From Rhodothermus profundi (lineage in GTDB: Bacteria; Bacteroidota; Rhodothermia; Rhodothermales; Rhodothermaceae), in assembly GCF_900142415.1 (NCBI RefSeq), contig NZ_FRAU01000003.1:188307-252306 (forward strand): 64,000 nt of DNA, given 5' to 3'. Every line of letters starts with the position of its first letter. Positions within the stretch are counted from its first letter, which is position 1. Made by a program: the position numbers and the translations under genes. Shown one piece after another: positions 3,718-52,235 of this stretch. Under the pieces are notes generated by a model. The model did no database searches. It worked only from the letters and a program-made list of their open reading frames with translations, and was not told the origin of the DNA.

Positions 3718-4980
3718 ATGGCCGCTCCTTCAGTAAGCCACACGGGATACGTGGATGCGCTGACCTTACCATTACCTCCCCCCCATCCGTTCCCGGATCC
3801 CTGGATTCCTGAGCCGCTGGCCAATCCCCCGATTATTTCCTGCGCGGCAGGCTTCGAAGCTGTCGTGGCCGCCGAACTGCAAGAGCTGGGCTACCGCGCT
3901 TGCTATCTGAAGTCGGCTAAGCTGGTCGTGCCCGAGGCATCGCTGGACGCCTGCCTTCCCCTGATTTTCTATGGGCGTACGCTGCACCGCGTCTACCTAT
4001 TGCTGGGGATAGGCCGAGTTAAGACGTTAAACGATGTGCGAGATTTTGCCCAGGCTATCTCCTTTCAAGATTATCTACATCCCAGCCAGCGGTTTGCCGT
4101 ACGGGCGCAGCGACACGGCACCCATCCTTTTACTTCCATGGATGTAGCACGTGAGGTCGGCACAGCAGTTGTTGACCGCATCCTCGCCCATACCGGGCAG
4201 CGCATCCGCGCCGACCTGGAAACGCCGGATGTAGAAATCATGGCAGAACTGAGCGACGATCAACTTTTGCTCTTGCTCAACGCGTCAGGTCCGCCCCTGC
4301 ATCGCCGGCATCGCCGTGCCTTTCAGCACTTTGCTCCCCTGCTTCCCACCTTAGCGGCTGCCCTGCTGCGCCTGTCCGATTTTCCCAGCGCAGTAGATCT
4401 CCTGATCGACCCGATGGCCGGTGGGGGTACCATTCCCATCGAAGCGGCGCTCATGGCGCGCCAGATTGCCCCAGGCCTGTTGCTTCCAGAAGAGCACCTG
4501 GTCTTCTTTCGGCTTCCCTTCTTCGACGCAGCCGGCTGGCACCAGCTTCGCCAGCAGGCAACATGCCAGGTTCGCCCACGCTCGCCTGTTCCGATTCTGG
4601 CAGCGGATCGTTTTGCCCGCAACGTCCGGGGCATGCAGGCCAATCTTGCTGCCATGGGCGTTGCAGCCGACGTGTCCGTCCATGCTGGAAACGCCGAGCG
4701 CATGACATACCTGGAAGGGATGGCCGGCGGGCGCTGGACGGTGGTCACCAATCCACCGTACGGCCTGCGCCTGGGCGACCCACGGCGCATCGACCAGCTC
4801 TACCGCGACTTTGCGCAGGCCTGCGCCCGGTACACCATTGGCGAGATTGTGGCCCTGACGCCCCGCCGCGATTCCTGGCTCAACGCCTTTGCGCAGGCAG
4901 GTTATCATCCCACGCTGATCCAGCCTGTGCGTTACGGCCGACTGGAAGCGTTCGTGCTGCGCGTTGAGCTGGCAGCTTAA
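3718..4980 (+). CDS. THUMP-domain class I SAM-dependent RNA guanine-N2 methyltransferase (RlmL/TrmN-like)
   Basis: Residues about 40-190 form a ferredoxin-like/THUMP RNA-binding region (SCAAGFEAVVAAEL start; RVYLLLG; VRAQRHGTHPFTS). Residues about 195-415 are a Rossmann methyltransferase with the SAM motif DPMAGGGTIPIEA (231-243) and the catalytic NPPYG (345-349) typical of N2-guanine or N6-adenine methylation. The family methylates guanine N2 in 23S rRNA (RlmL N-terminal part) or tRNA (TrmN/Trm14). Sequence alone does not decide which. The length of 420 aa fits the stand-alone form, not the fused RlmKL. Confidence 0.85.
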   Translation: MAAPSVSHTGYVDALTLPLPPPHPFPDPWIPEPLANPPIISCAAGFEAVVAAELQELGYRACYLKSAKLVVPEASLDACLPLIFYGRTLHRVYLLLGIGRVKTLNDVRDFAQAISFQDYLHPSQRFAVRAQRHGTHPFTSMDVAREVGTAVVDRILAHTGQRIRADLETPDVEIMAELSDDQLLLLLNASGPPLHRRHRRAFQHFAPLLPTLAAALLRLSDFPSAVDLLIDPMAGGGTIPIEAALMARQIAPGLLLPEEHLVFFRLPFFDAAGWHQLRQQATCQVRPRSPVPILAADRFARNVRGMQANLAAMGVAADVSVHAGNAERMTYLEGMAGGRWTVVTNPPYGLRLGDPRRIDQLYRDFAQACARYTIGEIVALTPRRDSWLNAFAQAGYHPTLIQPVRYGRLEAFVLRVELAA

Positions 4981-5030
4981 TAACAACGGGGTAGCCGGAA
5001 AGCCAGCCACCCTGTTCACCCCAGCGCTTC

Positions 5031-5516
5031 CTAGGCTGTTTGTGGCAGAGGCTCGGGCCACAGGTGGCGGATGGCTTTAGGCAACATAGCCCGCACGTCG
5101 GCAATCTCGCCGGCACTAATGTGCCGGTTAAGCACCTCAAAGACAACCCGCGCCGCCTGCTGCGGGCTGATAGTTAGACCAATCTGGTGCAAGGCCTCTT
5201 GAATGGGCAGCAGAAAATCCTGCTCATGCCGCAGGCGAAGCGGCTTATCGGTGGGATCCCAGCCCTCGAAGAAAATACCGCGTACCAGCAGAGGGAGCTG
5301 GGCTGCAAATTGTGCCGCTTCTTCGATGGTCAGCCGATCACGGAGCTGATGCAACACCGCCCGCAGCACATGATAGGCGTAGCGCCGGGCCGTCTCCTCT
5401 GGGTGCGGGCTATTACCTACATGTTCATCCAGATGCAACGCTTCACGGATTTCCTTCAGCCACGTATTTGTTTTTTGGATCGTGCTGTCAAACACGTCCA
5501 ATCCCGTCATCGACAT
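5031..5516 (-). CDS. DUF2267 domain-containing protein
   Basis: A 161-aa protein with the helical DUF2267 pattern: FDSTIQKTNTWLKEI near the N-terminus, AYHVLRAVLHQLRDRLTIEE and AAQFAAQLPLLVRGIFFEGW in the middle, then FLLPIQEAL and AARVVFEVLNRHIS. The domain is widespread in bacteria, often near stress genes, and its biochemical role is unknown. Two in-frame ATGs (5516 and 5510) could start it. No signal peptide. It sits between the RNA methyltransferase gene and the sensor kinase gene, with no overlap with either. Confidence 0.8.
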   Translation of the reverse strand: MSMTGLDVFDSTIQKTNTWLKEIREALHLDEHVGNSPHPEETARRYAYHVLRAVLHQLRDRLTIEEAAQFAAQLPLLVRGIFFEGWDPTDKPLRLRHEQDFLLPIQEALHQIGLTISPQQAARVVFEVLNRHISAGEIADVRAMLPKAIRHLWPEPLPQTA

Positions 5517-5595
5517 GGCGCGCCTCTGGGTCTGGTTGACACGCTGTCATCCACAGGCTTCCTCTGTAGACTGCGACAAAGCCCGTACCGGTCTG

Positions 5596-7029
5596 TCAGG
5601 CCGGCAGTACCGGAACCGGGCAGGCAGGCCAGCGCACTTCGAACGTACTGCCGCGGCCCGGGCCATCGCTCCAGGCATGCACCGAACCGCCGCAGGCTTC
5701 CACAATGGCGCGCACAATGGCTAACCCCAGTCCAGAGCCCGGCTTTCCCTCGGCGGAGCGTCCGCGATAGAACCGATCAAATAGATGGGCGGCTTCTTCC
5801 GGATCGAAGCCTATCCCTGTATCAGATACGCGCAGTCGCACCTGTCCATCTATTTGATGCACCTCTAACCGAACCCGTCCGCCCGGAGGCGTATACTTGC
5901 ACGCATTAGCGAGCAGATTATCCAGCACTTCGTCCAGATACTCCGGCACGCCACATACCCAGGCCCTTTCGGGCAGCACCACGTCAAGCGTCAGGCCAGC
6001 TCGCATTAGCCGCGGTTGCCAATCCTTCAGTCGAGTCTGGCAGCGTTCGACTAAATCGATCGGACGCGCGCGTTCGTGGGTGTCGGTCCGTTCCAGACGT
6101 GCCAGATGCAATAACCCCCGTACCGTGTCGGTCATGCGCTCCACGTCGCGCAATGCTTCCTGCAGCACCTCATGGTAATATGCGGCAGAACGTTGGCGCC
6201 GCAGGGCTACTTCCAGCTCACTACGCAGGGCCGAAAGGGGTGTCAGGAGCTCATGAGCAGCATTGTCCGTGAAACGCCGCTCGCGCTCCAGCGAGGCAGC
6301 CAACCGATCCAGCAAATCATTAAAGGTCTCTGCCAGTTCGCTCAGTTCGTCTCGCACCTCACCCGGGACCGGCAATCGAGCTTCCAGGTTATCTGCCCCG
6401 ATCTGGCGAGCCGTGGCTGTCAGCACCGCTACAGGCCGCAGAGCGCGTCGGGCCAGCCAGTACCCCCCCACTGCTGCCAACAGGGTGCTCAGCAGAATCC
6501 CCAGCCCCAGCACAAGCCCCAGATGGTGCAGCTCGCGGTGAAGTGACCACTCAAACCCCGTCACTTCCAGCCAGCCAAATAGCCGTCCCTCCTCCGAAAA
6601 AAGCGGCGTGTAGCGCGTGCGCGCCGGTTTATCTTCCCAGACGTGGCTGTACACCTGGGGCTCCTGGATGGGCTGCACGCGCACTGGCAGCGGGGCATGA
6701 CGCGCAAAATTTGGACTTTCGTAGACCACTTCACCATCAGGTCGAAGCAGTCGCACGTAGGTTCCATAGATACCATCTGTCTGATAGGCAACCGAGCGTA
6801 GCGTATCCAGAGCTACAAAAACCGGCCCGGCAATTCCCTGCTGCACGAAGGGTAGTAACTGACGCGTCTCATGAATCAGATGCTGGTCAAAGTCGCGGTG
6901 ACGCGCTACGTGAAACGTAAAGTAGCTGAAGGCAGAAAACAGCCCCAGCAAAATCAACATGGCAGCGGCAAACCAGAGAGCCAGCCGCACCGAAATCGAC
7001 CACGGCACCAGTTTCCAGCGGCGCATCAT
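5596..7029 (-). CDS. Sensor histidine kinase, CusS/CopS-like heavy-metal type
   Basis: The inner-membrane sensor of a two-component system. TM1 is about residues 12-40, a periplasmic sensor region about 41-165, TM2 about 170-192, HAMP about 193-245. HisKA is FTDNAAHELLTPLSALRSEL with phosphoacceptor His259, then N box (NLLANACKYTPPGG), G1 DTGIGF and G2 GSGLGLAIV. The overlap of 4 bp with the upstream response-regulator gene implies coupled translation. The cognate genes are inferred to be the divergent copper genes starting at 7881. Metal specificity (Cu rather than Ag or another metal) rests on this context. Confidence 0.88.
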   Translation of the reverse strand: MMRRWKLVPWSISVRLALWFAAAMLILLGLFSAFSYFTFHVARHRDFDQHLIHETRQLLPFVQQGIAGPVFVALDTLRSVAYQTDGIYGTYVRLLRPDGEVVYESPNFARHAPLPVRVQPIQEPQVYSHVWEDKPARTRYTPLFSEEGRLFGWLEVTGFEWSLHRELHHLGLVLGLGILLSTLLAAVGGYWLARRALRPVAVLTATARQIGADNLEARLPVPGEVRDELSELAETFNDLLDRLAASLERERRFTDNAAHELLTPLSALRSELEVALRRQRSAAYYHEVLQEALRDVERMTDTVRGLLHLARLERTDTHERARPIDLVERCQTRLKDWQPRLMRAGLTLDVVLPERAWVCGVPEYLDEVLDNLLANACKYTPPGGRVRLEVHQIDGQVRLRVSDTGIGFDPEEAAHLFDRFYRGRSAEGKPGSGLGLAIVRAIVEACGGSVHAWSDGPGRGSTFEVRWPACPVPVLPA

Positions 7030-42677: not shown

Positions 42678-44060
42678 TCAGCCACCCGGCGGAAACCGCC
42701 GCGGCAACGGCTCCGGCAGATCAGCTACGACATAAGCCATAATGGCCAGTGCGGCAATACACAGATTGAGTTCATGAGGATCCAGTTTGTCGATGGTGTC
42801 GGCGTCGGTATGATGATACCAGAAGTACCGCGTGCCGTCTACGCGCAATCCCATGCCCGGCACGCCTTCACGCATTAACGGAGCAATGTCAGCTCCCCCA
42901 CCTCCTTCCCAGATACGATCTGCTCCGATCGGCTGAAGCAATCGCGCTATCCTGCGAACGATGGCCAGCGCCTCGGGCGTCCCGGTAAATCCGAACCCCT
43001 CTGGTCGAAACACGCCGGCGTCCGATTCAATGGCCAGCACATGCCGGTCCAGTTCGTTTCGGTAGCGATTCCGGTACGCCAATGCCCCTCGCAGGCCGTT
43101 CTCTTCGTTGGTCCAGAGCACAACACGGATGGTTCGGCGTGGCCGCAATCCCAGCCGTTTCAAAAGTCGCACGGCTTCCCAGGCTGCCACGCATCCGCCT
43201 GCATCATCCATAGCCCCCTGCCCTACGTCCCATGAATCAATGTGTCCTCCTACGACAACAATTTCATCAGGACGCTCCCTTCCCACCAGCTCAGCCATCA
43301 CATTGCGCGACGGTACCTCTGGAAGCGTTTGCGCCTCCATGTAGAGCCAGAGTCGTGGCCGCTGCCCTCGATCCTGTAACCGTTGCAGCAGTTCGGCATC
43401 CTCGACGGTCAACGCAGCGTGTGGAATGCGCGGCACCCCTTGCTCGTAGCGCATGCTCCCGGTATGCGGCGTGTACAGCGAACGGGGTGTCACCGAGCGA
43501 ACCAGACTCGCTACCGCACCGGCGCGCGCAGCAGCTATCGCCCCCAACACGCGGTAACGTACGGTCTCCCCATAGGTGGTAAACGGCACGTTGAACACAA
43601 CAATACGTCCCTGCGCCGCTTCTCGCCGGGCTTCCAGTTCGTCAAAAGAGCGCACTACCAGCACCTCAGCCTCAATACCTTCGGGCGGTGTGGCTACGCT
43701 GCCTCCCAACCCCAGCACAGCCAGCTTCTTTCGATAAGGATAGCGGAGCTCCAGCGCCTCTTGCCCACGCACCCAACGAGGTACCATTACAGTATCCCCT
43801 CGAACGTTCTCCAGCCCGTCCTGACGCATGGTTTCCAGAATCCAATCAATGGCTCGCTCCAGTTGCGGAGTGCCGCTGAACCGCGGCCCAAACGTATCCA
43901 CCAGATAAGCCAAACGTTCGAACGCACTGCTGTCGGCCAGTGCTGTCTCGATAATGCGTTGTGCGATGGCCTCATAGCGGTTCCACAACGTATCCGATAG
44001 CGTCTGCGCCTGTGCAAGTCCGCTAATCACAAAAACGAGGGCGGTGATAAAGGAACGCAT
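42678..44060 (-). CDS. Secreted M28-family zinc aminopeptidase/carboxypeptidase Q-like
   Basis: 460 aa with a signal peptide (MRSFITALVFVISGLAQAQ). A PA-type insert lies in the middle (AAQGRIVVFNVPFTTYGETV). Zinc ligands follow the M28 order: VVGGHIDSWDVGQGAMDDAGG (split here as VVGGHIDSWD and GAMDDAGG), VVLWTNEENGLRGALAY, AIESDAGVF and FWYHHTDADTIDKLD. The organisation matches plasma glutamate carboxypeptidase (CPQ)-like enzymes. It would cleave peptides in the periplasm or outside. Divergent from the DUF429 gene. Confidence 0.9.
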   Translation of the reverse strand: MRSFITALVFVISGLAQAQTLSDTLWNRYEAIAQRIIETALADSSAFERLAYLVDTFGPRFSGTPQLERAIDWILETMRQDGLENVRGDTVMVPRWVRGQEALELRYPYRKKLAVLGLGGSVATPPEGIEAEVLVVRSFDELEARREAAQGRIVVFNVPFTTYGETVRYRVLGAIAAARAGAVASLVRSVTPRSLYTPHTGSMRYEQGVPRIPHAALTVEDAELLQRLQDRGQRPRLWLYMEAQTLPEVPSRNVMAELVGRERPDEIVVVGGHIDSWDVGQGAMDDAGGCVAAWEAVRLLKRLGLRPRRTIRVVLWTNEENGLRGALAYRNRYRNELDRHVLAIESDAGVFRPEGFGFTGTPEALAIVRRIARLLQPIGADRIWEGGGGADIAPLMREGVPGMGLRVDGTRYFWYHHTDADTIDKLDPHELNLCIAALAIMAYVVADLPEPLPRRFPPGG

Positions 44061-45490: not shown

Positions 45491-46702
45491 TTATGGATGC
45501 GCAGGATTCGGTGCGCTAGCGTCCTTTGCAAAGACAGCTCGTCCGTTCCGCGCAAACAGATCATAGCCTTCCGGTTGAGGCTGTCCCAGGAGCAACTCAG
45601 CCAGCAGTCGCCCCATGCGGAAACTATATCCCATGCCATGTCCGGTAAAACCAGCTACCCAGTAACTACCTGGCAGCCCGGGAATCTGGTCGATCATCGG
45701 AAGACCATCTGGCGAAAACCCCATCGTGCCACTCCAGCGACAACGCACCCTGAGCCCCGTGGTCTGGGGAAAATAGGCCTGCAAATAGCGCTCCAGATCA
45801 GCCTGCAGAGCCTCAGTCGTGACATCGTCATATCCTACTTCTTCCTCCAGATGTAAATGCCGGGCACCGCCCAGCAGTAACGTACCATCACGCAGTTGAC
45901 GCAGATAAAAAAAGCCTTCATGTGAGTAGACCGGACAGGGAATCCAGCGCTGGCGCGCTGGCTCGGTAGCCAACATCTGGGCGCGCACAGGTCGCACATA
46001 AGCGGCTGTCTCCGGTAGCAGCCGGGGAAGATAGGCGTTTAGCGCCAGTAGCACTTGCCCGGCTCGGATTGCCCCATAAGGTGTCTCTAGCCGCACCCCC
46101 TCATTACAGGGCATCAGTGCCAGCACGGGATGGTGCGTCAGCACGGTTGCCGTGCTCTGGATAGCCAGGTACCGCACAAAGGCTACTGGATCCAGACAGC
46201 CTCCTTCAGGCAGATACAGCCCACCACGATATCCCTGCGCCTGAAGCCGCCGGTTCACCTCGGCAGACGTCAGAAAAATCACCGGTATGCCATCGCTTCG
46301 GAGCAAAGCGACAGCCTGTTGCAGCCGCGCTTCTTCTTCGGCTGAGCCTGCCACAATCAGCGCTCCGCTGCTCTCCCAGTCAAAGGCAGCCGGATCCAGT
46401 TCACGCAACAGCAGCGAGCGATTCTCCCGCGTAAACTGCCAGAGCCTGCGCGCTCGCGTTTCGCCGTATCGGCGACAATCCTTCAGAAAATCGGCCGATG
46501 CGCCGGGCAAGATGAACCCGGCATTGCGCCCACTGGCCCCATCGGCCAGCGCGCTGGCTTCCAGCAGCATCAGACGCAACTGCGGCCGAAGCCGACGCAG
46601 CCAGAAGGCAGTAGCACACCCAATGACCCCGCCTCCGACAATAGCAATGTCGGCGATGCGTTCGGCCGCCTGATGTTGTCGCTGCCAGTAAGATCGTGTC
46701 AC
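45491..46702 (-). CDS. FAD-dependent oxidoreductase, DAO family (D-amino-acid/glycine oxidase-like)
   Basis: 403 aa with the FAD motif IAIVGGGVIGCATAFWLRRL near the N-terminus (about residues 19-38), ASGRNAGFILPGASA, and the C-terminal WVAGFTGHGMGYSFRMGRLLAEL. This is the DadA/SoxA/glycine-oxidase superfamily, which oxidises amines or imino acids with FAD. The substrate cannot be assigned. Gene order on the minus strand is amidohydrolases, AcuI-like reductase, then this gene 2 bp later, so it is likely co-transcribed with them. Confidence 0.85.
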   Translation of the reverse strand: MTRSYWQRQHQAAERIADIAIVGGGVIGCATAFWLRRLRPQLRLMLLEASALADGASGRNAGFILPGASADFLKDCRRYGETRARRLWQFTRENRSLLLRELDPAAFDWESSGALIVAGSAEEEARLQQAVALLRSDGIPVIFLTSAEVNRRLQAQGYRGGLYLPEGGCLDPVAFVRYLAIQSTATVLTHHPVLALMPCNEGVRLETPYGAIRAGQVLLALNAYLPRLLPETAAYVRPVRAQMLATEPARQRWIPCPVYSHEGFFYLRQLRDGTLLLGGARHLHLEEEVGYDDVTTEALQADLERYLQAYFPQTTGLRVRCRWSGTMGFSPDGLPMIDQIPGLPGSYWVAGFTGHGMGYSFRMGRLLAELLLGQPQPEGYDLFARNGRAVFAKDASAPNPAHP

Positions 46703-46704
46703 GG

Positions 46705-47691
46705 CTACGTCCGTACGTCAACGACCAGGCGGCCCTGCGTTTTACCGGCAAGCATCGCTTCACTCCACTGTGGCACTTCCGAAAGCGGAATGACACGGGT
46801 AACCCGGTGGAGCGCTTCCTTAGGCAGATCGTGCGTCAGACGATGCCAGGCCCGACGCCGTCGCTCCTGAGGGCAGGTGTTCGAATCAATGCCCAGCAGG
46901 TTAACACCACGCAGAATAAATGGAAAAACTGTGGTGGTGAACTCGTGGCTCTGCGCTAACCCGCAGGCAGCGACGCTACCATGGCGCTTGATCTGACTGA
47001 GCAGGGCTGCCAGCGTTGCGCCTCCAACCGTATCAACAGCTCCTGCCCAGCGTCCGGAGTCGAGCGGTCGCCGGGGTCCCTGCCCCAGCTCCTGCCGGTC
47101 TATGACGCGTGCTGCCCCCAGCGCCTGCAGCAGCCCATGAGCCGCAGGCTTACCCGTGGAGGCCACCACCTCGTAGCCCAGGTGGGCCAGAATAGCTACA
47201 GCCAGACTTCCCACCCCACCACTGGCGCCTGTCACTACAACCTCGCCCTGATCTGGCATGAGACCGTGCTCTTCAAGCGCCATCACCGAAAGCATGGCCG
47301 TAAAACCAGCCGTGCCAATGGCCATCGCCTCCAGGGGTGTAAGCCGACGAGGAAGCGGCACTACCCATTCAGCGCGCACGCGGGCCCGCGTTGCGTATCC
47401 TCCCCACTGCGACTCTCCAATTCCCCAGCCTGTTACGATCACCGTCTGACCGGGCTTGAGATTGGGATTACTCGATTCCAGAACGGTACCTACCAGGTCA
47501 ATACCTGGTACGAAGGGATAGTCTCCGCGAATGATTTTTCCCCTGCCCGTGACCGCCAGGGCATCCTTGTAATTCAGACTGGAGTAATGCACCTCCAGCA
47601 GCACGTCGCCTTCTGGCAGACGTTCTTCCGGCAGCGTCTCCACACGCGGTTGAATTGAGCCGGCTTCGTTGTACAGGACCAGTGCTCGCAT
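46705..47691 (-). CDS. YhdH/YhfP-type (AcuI-like) NADPH quinone or acrylyl-CoA reductase
   Basis: 328 aa from ATG 47691 (4 bp after the upstream amidohydrolase stop); an upstream start at 47730 would overlap that gene. Medium-chain reductase fold: LNYKDALAVTGRGKI, FVPGIDLVGTV, VIVTGWGIGESQWGGYA, NADPH motif VVVTGASGGVGSLAVAILA, and the family-typical GVNLLGIDSNTCPQERR near the C-terminus. Members reduce acrylyl-CoA or small quinones with NADPH. No zinc-binding Cys cluster, as expected. The physiological substrate is not given by context. Confidence 0.88.
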   Translation of the reverse strand: MRALVLYNEAGSIQPRVETLPEERLPEGDVLLEVHYSSLNYKDALAVTGRGKIIRGDYPFVPGIDLVGTVLESSNPNLKPGQTVIVTGWGIGESQWGGYATRARVRAEWVVPLPRRLTPLEAMAIGTAGFTAMLSVMALEEHGLMPDQGEVVVTGASGGVGSLAVAILAHLGYEVVASTGKPAAHGLLQALGAARVIDRQELGQGPRRPLDSGRWAGAVDTVGGATLAALLSQIKRHGSVAACGLAQSHEFTTTVFPFILRGVNLLGIDSNTCPQERRRRAWHRLTHDLPKEALHRVTRVIPLSEVPQWSEAMLAGKTQGRLVVDVRT

Positions 47692-47695
47692 GGAA

Positions 47696-48901
47696 TTACT
47701 GACAGGTTTGGTGAACGAGTTCGCCTTCAATGATTACGCCACATACGTGCGTGGTGTACTCGAAGGGATCGCCGTCGAAAAGCACCAGATCGGCATCTTT
47801 ACCGGGTTCTAACGAGCCTACGCGATCCGCAATTCCCAGAATACGGGCGGCCTGAATCGTCAAGGCCTCCAGCGCAGCCATACGGGGCAACCCGTTGGCT
47901 ACGGCCATCGCCGCTTCAAACAGGACCACCCGCGTCTTAGGCACATAGCTTTCAAAGCCACTCTGGAAGGCAAAAGGAATGCCCGCCTCATAAAGCCTGG
48001 CCGCCGTTTCGAGGGTGGCATTGACCGTTTCGCCCCGGGGACGCACCATTGTCGGATGCAGAATCACCGGAACGCCAGCCTTCTTGATCTCATCCAGCAC
48101 CAGGTACGCCTCCGCAGCCCCATCCAGAATCAATCGAAAGCCAAACTCGCGTTGCAGGCGCAGCGCTGCCATGATTTCAGGCACCTGCTGCGCTGTGATC
48201 ATCAGCGGAATTTCGCCATCGAGCACGCGAACAAGCGTCTCCAACCCCAGATCTGGATCAGGACGCCGCGCCGGATCCGAAGCCTGCCGCTTGCGGCGAT
48301 AGGCCTGGGCTTTGAGCAGTTCGGCCCGTAGCATGGCCACCGCCTTGGCGCGAGTCCCGGGACTGCGAAAGTAGCGTTCAATCATGGGGCCCAGCGTGGC
48401 CGCAACGGTCGCCACAGAATCAACCAGCGCCTCTTCGACTGTTTCGCCGCGCGTTTTGACCAGCATGGTCTGGCCACTGATGACCGCCCCTGGCCCGTGA
48501 CCGGTGTGCAACGTTGTCACGCCGAAGCTGCGCACCCATGCTACCAGTTTTTCCCGTGCATTGTAGGCGTCAATAGCCCGCAGCTCTGGCTGGATCGGAT
48601 CGGAACGGTCCAGTTGATCCTGGTCGTGGTCATAGTTCAGGATGCCGGCCAATCCGACCACGCTGTGCGCGTCGATAAGCCCGGGCGTAACAACAGCGGC
48701 TTCCAGCACCTGGTATCCTTCGGGAACGCGAACGTCCTGTGCCGGTCCGACCTGTTCAATTTTTCCATCCCGGATCAGCACAACCCCCTCTATAATCGGA
48801 GCGCCGCTCATTGTATAGAGCGTATCCGCCCGCACAGCCAGTTGTGCCCGGGCAGAAGCCACGCATAACGACAGTCCGACCAGCAGACTCCATGCTTTCA
48901 T
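47696..48901 (-). CDS. Secreted amidohydrolase paralogue lacking metal ligands
   Basis: 401 aa from ATG 48901 with a signal peptide (WSLLVGLSLCVASARAQ); a TTG at 48931 is possible but unnecessary. The fold is that of the upstream neighbour (IDAHSVVGLAG, ALRLQREFGFRLILDGAAEAY, AARILGIADRVGSLEPGKDADLVLFDG). The metal-binding HxH is reduced to a single His79 (AHSVVG). FHTHRHDDI is ITAQQVPEI, VLHHVSEAW is ILDGAAEAY, and IHTDDLITD is FQSGFESYV. It should therefore be inactive as a hydrolase and may pair with the intact enzyme. It lies 27 bp downstream of it. Confidence 0.82.
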   Translation of the reverse strand: MKAWSLLVGLSLCVASARAQLAVRADTLYTMSGAPIIEGVVLIRDGKIEQVGPAQDVRVPEGYQVLEAAVVTPGLIDAHSVVGLAGILNYDHDQDQLDRSDPIQPELRAIDAYNAREKLVAWVRSFGVTTLHTGHGPGAVISGQTMLVKTRGETVEEALVDSVATVAATLGPMIERYFRSPGTRAKAVAMLRAELLKAQAYRRKRQASDPARRPDPDLGLETLVRVLDGEIPLMITAQQVPEIMAALRLQREFGFRLILDGAAEAYLVLDEIKKAGVPVILHPTMVRPRGETVNATLETAARLYEAGIPFAFQSGFESYVPKTRVVLFEAAMAVANGLPRMAALEALTIQAARILGIADRVGSLEPGKDADLVLFDGDPFEYTTHVCGVIIEGELVHQTCQ

Positions 48902-48927
48902 AGCACCCAATCCATTTTTTTCCTGGT

Positions 48928-50217
48928 TCAATGATCAGCATGTACAAACACATCCCCATCCTCAAATACCCCGGCTCCCCCCACTGCATATTTACGATCT
49001 TCTGGATTTGCCCGGTCAAACACCTTCTGGCCTTCCACCCAGGTTTGCTCTACATGCGTATAGACGCTGAGCGGATCGCCGGACAAAACGATAAAGTCCG
49101 CGTCTTTACCGGGCTCCAGGGAGCCGATGCGGTCGGCCAGGTCTAGCATGCGGGCGCCGGCCAGCGTAAGGGCCTCCAGAGCCTTTTCGGGAGACATGCC
49201 CGCCCGAACGGCCAGGGCTGCCGCTCGCAGGAACCATCGCGAATCTGTAATCAGGTCATCGGTATGAATGGCCACTGCTGCACCAGCTTGCTCCAGCGCG
49301 GCCCCATTTTTCATGCTTAGATCCACTGCTTCCAGTTTACCGCCTGGCGCATCCAGGATGATGATGGAGCTGGGCACGCCAGCAGCGGCAATTTCATCGG
49401 CCACCTTCCAGGCCTCGCTGACGTGGTGCAGCACAACGCGGAATCCAAATTCTCGTTGCAGACGCAGCACAGTCAGAATGTCGTCGTGCCGATGCGTGTG
49501 AAAATGCACGATCCGCCGCCCGTCCAGCACCTCCAACAGCGCTTCCATATCCAGATCACGCTCTGGCATCTTCTCGGGATCACCCTTTGCCTGTTCGATT
49601 TTGCGCCGATAGGCTAAGGCTTTCAGAAACTGCTGGCGCACCAGGGCGGCTGCCTTGGCCCGGGTCCCTGGAAACGGGGGATCGCCCTGCGGATTGGTAC
49701 CGTTGGCCATTTTTAATCCCCCGCAGACCTCTGTCAGCGGGTCTTTGCAGTAAAGCAGGTCTTCAATGGTGTTGCCTTTGCGCAGCTTCAAGTAAACCGT
49801 CTGACCACTGAGCAGGTGGCCAGAACCCGACATCACATTCACAGTGGTTATGCCGCCTGCCCGCGCCCGCTGCACCGAGCTATGCCGCACATCAATGGCA
49901 TCCAGGGTGCGGACCGCCGGATGCATGGGCGCGGAGCGGTCGCCGCCTTCAACGCGACCAATGTGTGAATGCGTATCGACCAGTCCCGGCATAATTACCT
50001 TACCCGTCACGTCATAAACCGTAGCTCGCTCCGGAACTGGCACGCTATCCTCGGGCCCTACCGCCACGATCTTGCCATGCTGCACCACCAGCACGCCGCG
50101 TTCAATGGGAGGCTGACTGATGGGATAAAGTCGGGCCCCACGAAAAACCAGCGGCTGTTCTTGCCCATAGAGCACCAACGGGACCAGAACCGCCAACAAT
50201 GTCAGAGATACCCGCAT
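48928..50217 (-). CDS. Secreted amidohydrolase family protein with intact metal site
   Basis: 429 aa from ATG 50217, chosen for its signal peptide (MRVSLTLLAVLVPLVLYGQ) over the upstream codon at 50274. The catalytic layout is MPGLVDTHSHIG (His83, His85), VHFHTHRHDDIL, FRVVLHHVSEAW and AVAIHTDDL, then DLADRIGSLEPGKDADFIVLSG. This resembles imidazolonepropionase-like or dipeptidase-type amidohydrolases with a binuclear metal site. The substrate is unknown. It is followed 27 bp later by a paralogue that lacks the ligands. Divergent from the TonB-like gene. Confidence 0.88.
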   Translation of the reverse strand: MRVSLTLLAVLVPLVLYGQEQPLVFRGARLYPISQPPIERGVLVVQHGKIVAVGPEDSVPVPERATVYDVTGKVIMPGLVDTHSHIGRVEGGDRSAPMHPAVRTLDAIDVRHSSVQRARAGGITTVNVMSGSGHLLSGQTVYLKLRKGNTIEDLLYCKDPLTEVCGGLKMANGTNPQGDPPFPGTRAKAAALVRQQFLKALAYRRKIEQAKGDPEKMPERDLDMEALLEVLDGRRIVHFHTHRHDDILTVLRLQREFGFRVVLHHVSEAWKVADEIAAAGVPSSIIILDAPGGKLEAVDLSMKNGAALEQAGAAVAIHTDDLITDSRWFLRAAALAVRAGMSPEKALEALTLAGARMLDLADRIGSLEPGKDADFIVLSGDPLSVYTHVEQTWVEGQKVFDRANPEDRKYAVGGAGVFEDGDVFVHADH

Positions 50218-50368
50218 ACGCTGGCTCCAGGTTGGGTGGCACATACCTATGCAGAGGGTTTTAAAGTTAGGCAAAATTCAGAAAAGGGCGGACGTCGATG
50301 AGCCATCCGGCAACTTTTTGGACTGTCTATGGTTTTTTCACAGAGGTTTCTCACTGGGTGAGGTGGTC

Positions 50369-51076
50369 ATGGGGCGTGGGCCTACAGGGTCTTGGAGACG
50401 CCGCCAGCTCTACCATCGGCTGGAAGTGCGAGAGCACATCTATGCGCTCCGCCTCCTTGGCAGCTTAGCCGTTGTCCTCATGCTGTGTTTATGGCTTACC
50501 CGGCTTCCCTGGTACCCGGCCCCACGTCCCATCGGCTGGCAACTGGTCGAAGAAGATCGGCGACTGGCCTTAATGGCGACGCAGCTTGAAGCGAAAGCCC
50601 AGGAAGACGCAGGCGTTCCGATCACCCGCTTTACGCCCCCAGAACCTGAACAGAAACAGGAAGGCCGCGACACTTCGCAGCGGCCAACGTTTAAGCTGCG
50701 CCGCCGGTTAGAACCTCCGGCGCGTCTCCAGGCGCGAGAAGTTATCTTCGAGAACCCAGAGCAACCACCACGCATCATTGGAGGATTAGGGGCTTACTAC
50801 ATCCACATCGAATACCCAGAGGAAGCCATTCGTGCGGGTATTGAAGGGCGGCTGGTGCTTCGTTTTATTGTAGAAACGGACGGACGCCCCTCCCGCATTC
50901 AGGTCATTGAACCGCTGCATCCACTCCTTGACTCAGCGGCTGTAGCGGCCCTGCGCCGCGTGCGTTTCATTCCGGGTAAACAGAACGGCCGTCCGGTGCG
51001 CGTCCGCATGCAGTTGCCCGTGCGCTTTCGCTTGCTACCCAGTCCGGTTCAGGCCAACAACGACGGTGGGCATTAA
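50369..51076 (+). CDS. TonB-family protein with single membrane anchor
   Basis: 235 aa from ATG 50369, preceded by GTGAGGTGGTC as ribosome-binding site. It has a basic N-terminus, one transmembrane helix (about residues 27-45, LRLLGSLAVVLMLCLWL) and a charged linker. The C-terminal TonB domain (about 145-225) reads IEYPEEAIRAGIEGRLVLRFIV, then DGRPSRIQVIEPLHPLLDSAAV and RVRFIPGKQNGRPV. TonB transduces proton-motive energy to outer-membrane receptors. No ExbB/ExbD or receptor gene is adjacent, so its partner is unknown. Confidence 0.85.
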   Translation: MGRGPTGSWRRRQLYHRLEVREHIYALRLLGSLAVVLMLCLWLTRLPWYPAPRPIGWQLVEEDRRLALMATQLEAKAQEDAGVPITRFTPPEPEQKQEGRDTSQRPTFKLRRRLEPPARLQAREVIFENPEQPPRIIGGLGAYYIHIEYPEEAIRAGIEGRLVLRFIVETDGRPSRIQVIEPLHPLLDSAAVAALRRVRFIPGKQNGRPVRVRMQLPVRFRLLPSPVQANNDGGH

Positions 51077-51083
51077 CGCAGCT

Positions 51084-52202
51084 TTACCACCCCGAAACAA
51101 TCACTTCGTCACTCTCGGGCAACTCAGGAGGAGGCAGCGCATCCAGGTTCAGCACGTCCTGTCCAACCTGCTGTTGCCAGCGCTCCTGTGCCCTTCGATT
51201 ACCCGATACCCAGCGGAACGTCGCTGCGGTACCATCTTCAGAGATGGTCAGCACCCCAGACAACACGCAGAGCGGTCGGAACCAACCGCCTTCGCGCCAG
51301 CGTGCGGTTACCTCCACCACATACTGGAGGTTCAGTGGATTAAAACTCCAGCTTTCCACCTGAAGCCAGACAGGATACCATCGCCCGCTGAGGCGCTCGA
51401 CCACCTGCTGCAACGCTTCTCCGGCGAAATGCGCCACTTCCGCTTTACGTTCGGCCTCCGTCTTAGGCCGCAAGCGCCGCGTAACAGACGTAAGCAGCTC
51501 AGGCGTCTCCAGGCCGGCGTAAAGCTCAAAGGTCACCGTAGCCGAACGCCCGACGCGAAATTGCTGCTGCAACGCGTAGCGAAAATCAGAAAAAGCAGGC
51601 AGTGCAGACAGTTCGATAACCCCTTCCCAGGTTCGGAGGGGCACGCGGAGTTGACTGTGCGGATCAGCCTGCGTTCCGATAAGCAGATATCCCTGAAACG
51701 ACCGTTGCAGTGGCAGTGGCTCCCAGCCATCCCCGTCGTAGCGCTGACGCTCCCATCGGGAACGCAGCCGATAGTAGAGCCGAGCTGTTGTTCCCTGGAA
51801 CGGATAGACGATTTCTGGCTCAACAACCAGCCGTTTGGGGGACGCATTCAGGCCAATCTGATCACACACCACCCGCCCCGCGAACCATCCACACACTTCC
51901 AGCAACAGCCGCTCCTGATCCTCCAACCGAGCATCTGGAACCGGAATCATCCGCGCTGCGCCCAGATACAGCGTATCGTAACGTGCGCTCAGCAGCAGGA
52001 CTTGCAACGAATCGGGTTGGACGGGCTCAGGACTGCTCGGCCACCGCTGCTTTACAAACTGCACAGCTACCTGCAAGGAATCCCATCCGTACCGGTGCAG
52101 CAAAAGCTGGGCAACCCGGTAAGACGCTTGCTGCTGGCAGCCGCTTAGTAGCAATACCAGCACAATACCTGCAATCCAGCCCGCAATTTTTCCCGTTCGC
52201 AT
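51084..52202 (-). CDS. Predicted lipoprotein of unknown function
   Basis: 372 aa from ATG 52202 with a lipobox (IAGIVLVLLLSGC). The rest is a soluble, largely beta-predicted region (WEPLPLQRSFQGYLLIGTQA, RYALQQQFRVGRSATVTFEL, VEVTARWREGGWFRPL) with no recognised domain or catalytic motif. It is convergent with the TonB-like gene (7 bp apart) and lies 33 bp downstream of the Nudix gene on the same strand. Periplasm-facing membrane lipoprotein is the only safe statement. Confidence 0.7.
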   Translation of the reverse strand: MRTGKIAGWIAGIVLVLLLSGCQQQASYRVAQLLLHRYGWDSLQVAVQFVKQRWPSSPEPVQPDSLQVLLLSARYDTLYLGAARMIPVPDARLEDQERLLLEVCGWFAGRVVCDQIGLNASPKRLVVEPEIVYPFQGTTARLYYRLRSRWERQRYDGDGWEPLPLQRSFQGYLLIGTQADPHSQLRVPLRTWEGVIELSALPAFSDFRYALQQQFRVGRSATVTFELYAGLETPELLTSVTRRLRPKTEAERKAEVAHFAGEALQQVVERLSGRWYPVWLQVESWSFNPLNLQYVVEVTARWREGGWFRPLCVLSGVLTISEDGTAATFRWVSGNRRAQERWQQQVGQDVLNLDALPPPELPESDEVIVSGW

Positions 52203-52235
52203 GACCATGCCCAGGGAGGCCGCCTACAGAACGAA

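Follow-up and report, generated by a model that had tools for sequence, protein, structure and literature searches.

In Pseudomonas, an inactive chain of amidohydrolase fold, the pseudo-dihydroorotase pDHO, is needed for the activity of the organism's aspartate transcarbamoylase, according to the published account (PMC7053772). Similarly, CRMP-4 keeps two of the six metal-binding residues, and its bridging lysine is replaced (PMC4051505). The CRMPs, which are related to dihydropyrimidinase, are dead relatives of a binuclear amidohydrolase, just as B, one of the two proteins described here, is a dead relative of its neighbor A. Both are encoded in a 64,000-nucleotide stretch of the Rhodothermus profundi genome, the whole of which is referred to below as the window.

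An adjacent pair of amidohydrolase paralogues

Gene A (48928-50217, minus strand, ATG at 50217) encodes a putative secreted amidohydrolase of 429 amino acids with a complete expected metal site, and gene B (47696-48931, minus strand) encodes its paralogue, which lacks this site and is 411 amino acids long if read from the TTG at 48931. The two genes are arranged head to tail on the minus strand, and the TTG of B overlaps the stop codon of A. An alternative ATG at 48901 would yield a B protein of 401 amino acids and is the likelier start, because the match to the orthologues starts at B residues 9-12. In both A and B a hydrophobic N-terminal stretch reads as a signal peptide, and residues 3-26 of B are helical in the structure model of this protein.

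The two proteins are 40% identical over 394 amino acids (E 2e-74), and the paralogy is thus not a matter of chance. The Pfam family Amidohydro_1 (PF01979) matches A with 67.8 bits and B with 51.1 bits at a cut-off of 25. Because B passes the same cut-off as A, annotation by profiles would label both proteins amidohydrolases and count B as an enzyme. By sequence, the best solved relative of A (E 6.7e-64) as well as of B is 3OOQ, an amidohydrolase of Thermotoga maritima MSB8. Structures of the dihydropyrimidinase type reach only E 2.4e-4 with A and are not listed for B up to E 0.001. The AlphaFold model of B (pLDDT 94.1, pTM 0.90) superimposes on 3OOQ with a Z score of 52.5 and 1.8 Å over 375 residues, the next entry scoring 26.8.

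Downstream of B follow genes for an ADH-type dehydrogenase (46705-47730, minus strand) and an FAD-dependent oxidoreductase (DAO protein; 45491-46702, minus strand). A dehydrogenase family resembling the former is found directly downstream of B in seven named loci, and an FAD protein resembling the latter in four. Upstream of A lies a divergent gene for a TonB-C protein (50249-51076), followed by one for a 374-amino acid protein (51084-52208, minus strand) that starts like a lipoprotein and matches no Pfam family at E up to 0.001. The window also encodes an M28 family peptidase with a signal-like start (42678-44060, minus strand; 111.4 bits). With regard to a third conserved partner, no neighbor family occurred in more than seven of the loci L110-L189, two larger clusters aside; these clusters (61 and 19 loci) are taken for antisense frames because every member lies on the minus strand.

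The metal site in A and its loss in B

We take six aligned positions (HxH, Lys, His, His and Asp) to be the metal ligands, based on what is generally known of the amidohydrolase superfamily. The assignment also rests on the alignment with 3OOQ, which has the same six residues as A, at the level of sequence rather than from coordinates. In A, the site consists of H83 and H85 of the HSH motif (49963-49971), K169 at β4 (49711-49713), H240 at β5 (49498-49500), H265 at β6 (49423-49425) and D320 at β8 (49258-49260), all encoded on the minus strand. The corresponding positions of B, likewise on the minus strand, are H89-S-V91 in place of HSH (48659-48667), A177 in place of K169 (48401-48403), T246 in place of H240 (48194-48196), G271 in place of H265 (48119-48121), and, in place of D320, residue E327 within the signature Q323-S-G-F-E327-x-Y-V-P-K332-T-R334 (47930-47965). 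A has all six residues, whereas B has one, the first histidine of HxH (H89), so that compared to 3OOQ five of six metal-site residues are missing. The β4 lysine of A suggests a bridge formed by a carboxylated lysine.

A census was taken of the domains from 189 loci after removal of identical ones; it covered domains of at least about 330 residues and, for A and B, of at least 500 bits, a floor below which aberrant forms of the two could be missed. All six residues are present in 98 of 100 A domains, the other two having gaps at HxH. In contrast, each of the 109 B domains has none (39) or one (70) of the six, figures that count sequences and not events, since the domains of near relatives are not independent. 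The second histidine of HxH, the lysine, the β6 histidine and the β8 aspartate are each kept in 0 of 109 B domains and the β5 histidine in four, while the first histidine of HxH is found in 66 and replaced by arginine in the other 43. The β8 position is occupied by glutamate in all 109, and an acidic residue thus stays; an earlier alignment with a different gap placement had put glycine at this position of B. Because B has at most one of the six residues in 109 of 109 domains and A all six in 98 of 100, the loss in B is a trait of the family, not a local decay.

The original prediction had described two adjacent secreted paralogues, in the second of which every histidine cluster of the first is lost or reduced. 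The adjacency and the paralogy hold, as does secretion insofar as the N-termini are read as signal peptides. Five of the six residues are indeed gone and the losses are shared family-wide; however, H89 is kept, and the loss of the β4 lysine had been omitted from the list of lost ligands.

Pairing across genomes and a related three-gene system

Loci were collected by a scan of a genome collection with 20 aligned B sequences, from which the best 80 of at least 569 relatives were used; the search set had been picked by the signature motifs of B itself, and aberrant forms could therefore be missed. In 77 of these 80 named loci the gene directly upstream of B, in the same orientation, is A, which the start of the contig truncates in several of them. 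In the remaining three (L137, L163 and L173) only 100-170 bases of contig precede the B domain. When the start of B is chosen permissively, no more than 50 bases separate it from the stop of A in 70 of the 77. In one locus (L154:4640-5938, plus strand) A is present in two pieces of the same frame (4640-4909 and 4913-5938) before an intact B, which points to either an internal stop codon or a misassembly. The best 80 come from Rhodothermus, other Rhodothermia, Balneolales, Chlorobi, Ignavibacteria, Calditrichota, Gemmatimonadetes, Acidobacteria, Planctomycetota, Verrucomicrobia and one gammaproteobacterial bin; since nearly all of these records are metagenome bins, single odd placements may be due to mis-binning.

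A similar picture emerged from two overlapping genome samples. Among 195 genomes of the class, A (E 1e-90 or better) occurs in 127, B (E about 1e-80 or better) in 128, and both in 126. In the discordant genomes (G146, G328 and G362) the single gene was found at or near a contig end, and in a further one (G316) a partial B match at a contig start stayed below the threshold. Among 247 genomes of the phylum, A occurs in 57 and B in 56, all of the latter with A; G146 is the sole genome with A only. The genome G001, which belongs to the same genus as that of the window, has neither gene. In the samples of 195 and 247 genomes no clear loner of A or B was seen, and in the loci examined no natural A-B fusion. 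The notion that the A-B pair is a local quirk is ruled out by the named loci and the genome samples.

One genome (G211) has a single gene for 408 amino acids (L190:5052-6278, plus strand) with an A-like first and a B-like last part. It reads as a natural A/B chimera that replaces the pair in this genome and was counted under both A and B. By our own reading of its residues, the putative chimera keeps HSH, the lysine and the β5 histidine and has the B version elsewhere. In another genome (G328), B at a contig end is directly preceded by an open reading frame whose start resembles that of a lipoprotein (L191:2776-3450, minus strand), and in G017, which bears the same family code, about 600 bases separate A from B. 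Given this upstream frame and this distance, a gene may sit between the two there.

Conservation of the pair and of the losses in related genomes had been proposed as a check, and a B protein that stands alone with restored ligands as the case that would speak against a partnership. Both the pair and the losses proved to be conserved; the opposite case was looked for and not seen in the loci and samples described, the gene of G211 being an apparent chimera.

The genome of the window harbors a second locus, C-A'-B' (G000:C4:53030-57280; L003, L004 and L006), of a kind present in many Bacteroidota. As in the A-B pair, an active-type protein, A', is encoded beside dead relatives. However, there are two dead copies instead of one, and C and A' often form a single fused protein of about 1000 amino acids. 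All six metal-site residues are present in 48 of 48 A' domains, and zero to two are kept in C (28 domains) and B' (46 domains). Matches to A' at E 1e-30 or better occur in 142 of the 247 genomes of the phylum sample; in some of these genomes A alone accounts for the match. Among the matches listed, 71 are in frames of 983-1164 residues outside the order of the window's genome, and all 13 such long-frame loci that were inspected encode a dead N-terminal domain followed by A'. The fused N-terminal domains (14, one of them spurious) keep zero to two metal-site residues.

Within a set of 60 A' loci, some of which stem from one genome, the dead domain and A' are fused in 13, C is a separate gene immediately before A' in 35, and in 12 the sequence upstream is too short to tell. 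B' follows A' in 50 of the 60; two are cut, and eight are without B' by the search rule, a number that overstates the absence of B' at least in L037, where a B'-like open reading frame is present. The gene next downstream of C-A'-B' (L003:2902-4158) presumably encodes a gamma-glutamyltransferase-like protein. An open frame in G045 (L086:2162-8749, plus strand) extends for at least 2196 amino acids, up to the end of the available sequence, and comprises a dead N domain and a partial A' domain.

In a tree of 60 rows every class groups as a single clade, and a split with a support of 100/96 divides A, A' and 3OOQ, whose sites are complete, from the dead B, B', C and fused N domains. Separate C and fused N domains are sister clades (100/100). 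After removal of the metal-site columns together with two neighbors on each side, the split between active and dead proteins is still supported at 96/91. Both of these careful trees are unrooted, and a spurious out-of-frame domain (L048_N) and two outgroup rows were dropped from them; in a quick tree that included two distant outgroup rows, the backbone of A, B, A' and B'/C lacked resolution. From these sequence comparisons we favor a single loss before A and A' parted, and hence one origin of the dead branch. A topology with A and B as nearest sisters, in which B would have lost its site independently of B' and C, is not favored, nor is it rejected by the AU test without the metal-site columns (p 0.274, for a topology named after the tree had been seen).

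B as a probable partner of A

B is under strong purifying selection. The dN/dS values (NG86) are 0.04-0.16 for B and 0.03-0.16 for A, each from 15 pairwise comparisons of six genomes, five from the genus of the window and one from its order, and are rough, as dS is often above 1. In the 69 named loci where the genes are complete, the mean pairwise identity is 0.57 for B and 0.60 for A; the two identity sets correlate at 0.79, which does not show contact because shared ancestry alone gives a high correlation. Furthermore, conservation reaches at least 95% in 79 of the 411 columns of B, and 30 of these columns hold residues that are rare in A. The vanished metal site could also mark B as a decaying duplicate that is kept by chance, but with dN/dS and identity values so close to those of A, so many conserved columns and a presence in many bacterial groups this is hardly credible; decay is in the main ruled out by dN/dS, column conservation and taxonomic spread.

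In the amidohydrolase superfamily the active site is located on the loops after the barrel strands. Of the 30 B-specific conserved positions, 16 lie in such loops, which make up 98 of 411 residues (p 2.7e-4, indicative only, because the zone was self-defined by the strand list of the B model and the signal peptide is part of the background). Two further signatures of B, H142-T-G-H-G-P-G148 (48488-48508, minus strand) and H292-P-x-M-x-R297 (48041-48058, minus strand), also follow barrel strands, and H142, H145, H292 and E327 hardly vary, if at all. These four residues, placed after barrel strands in the B model, might for example form a new metal site and make B a second, different hydrolase; yet among the structure hits we recognized no solved relative that has a site of this kind, and we regard this as quite improbable. 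The conserved loop positions would also suit a B protein that acts on its own in the same pathway without being bound to A, either as a binding protein or as a metal-independent enzyme, with substrate, product or cofactor bound in the former active-site pocket. The structure prediction for an A-B chain carries little weight either way. In L135 the two genes share one frame, and the chain obtained by reading through the stop was modeled with AlphaFold from an alignment of 8 paired and 18 B-only rows (L140, which has unknown residues, was dropped from the structure alignments). Both barrels form, with a mean pLDDT of 81.5, a pTM of 0.51 and a confidence below that for B alone; with these 8 paired rows the model neither placed the two barrels relative to each other nor predicted an interface. 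Against an independent B stand the facts that it was never seen without A in the loci and genome samples tested, that the genes are close (the gap of at most 50 bases, under the permissive start rule, in 70 of 77 loci), and that the related C-A' system has the corresponding domains in one fused protein; we thus consider it unlikely.

Instead, we think it probable that A is an active amidohydrolase and that B is its dedicated pseudoenzyme, an obligate non-catalytic subunit of a hetero-oligomer with A. The strict linkage to A, the conservation and the fusion of the equivalent domains in C-A' argue that B is a dedicated partner and probably a working one. A shared pathway without contact would likewise give rise to linkage and to joint gain or loss; by analogy, the fusion of a dead to an active domain in C-A' supports contact between A and B. 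The original prediction had reasoned from the retained fold and the lost ligands to a selected non-catalytic partner. Fold, shared loss, purifying selection and linkage support this in part, and binding of B to A is suggested by the analogy. From its residues we infer that B is without catalysis.

With B as a dedicated partner, A would hydrolyze a small substrate, presumably an amide, peptide or lactone, outside the cytoplasm via its metal site. Following an old duplication, B would have lost metal binding while keeping the barrel, and would have gained conserved residues of its own, about half of them on the loops after the barrel strands. Lacking the means to build a metal site of the A type, B would most likely bind A in the predicted hetero-oligomer and be needed for the folding, stability or assembly of A or for substrate entry; it may also sense a ligand in its remodeled pocket. 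A more far-reaching idea, which we put forward as tentative and rather doubtful, is that the secreted amidohydrolases of this branch are obligate hetero-oligomers of one active and one or two dead barrels, an arrangement that would have arisen once, before the split of A and A', and then have been duplicated and spread, with the dead pocket serving as a second functional site, be it as a ligand sensor or as a donor of residues to a composite site.

If the partnership is true, A and B represent an old and widespread unit of an active and a dead paralogue, with unfused and fused related pairs coexisting, and would be well suited for asking what the inactive barrel contributes to the active one. 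Assays that use A without its neighbor may be unsuccessful. No paper on the A-B pair was found in a search of the open-access literature by title and start of the abstract, a scope outside which most subscription papers fall. The CRMPs are cytosolic proteins of animals and belong to the dihydropyrimidinase branch; to our knowledge they are not encoded as a tandem pair with an active enzyme. A and B, in turn, are far closer to 3OOQ than to dihydropyrimidinase. No aspartate transcarbamoylase gene lies beside B in the window, where the neighbors are A and the ADH-type, DAO and TonB-C proteins. The partner of pDHO is an unrelated transcarbamoylase, whereas the partner of B is its active paralogue and both proteins look secreted. 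Thus, while dead amidohydrolases that partner other enzymes are known, here a dead chain is paired with its own active paralogue, in many bacterial groups.
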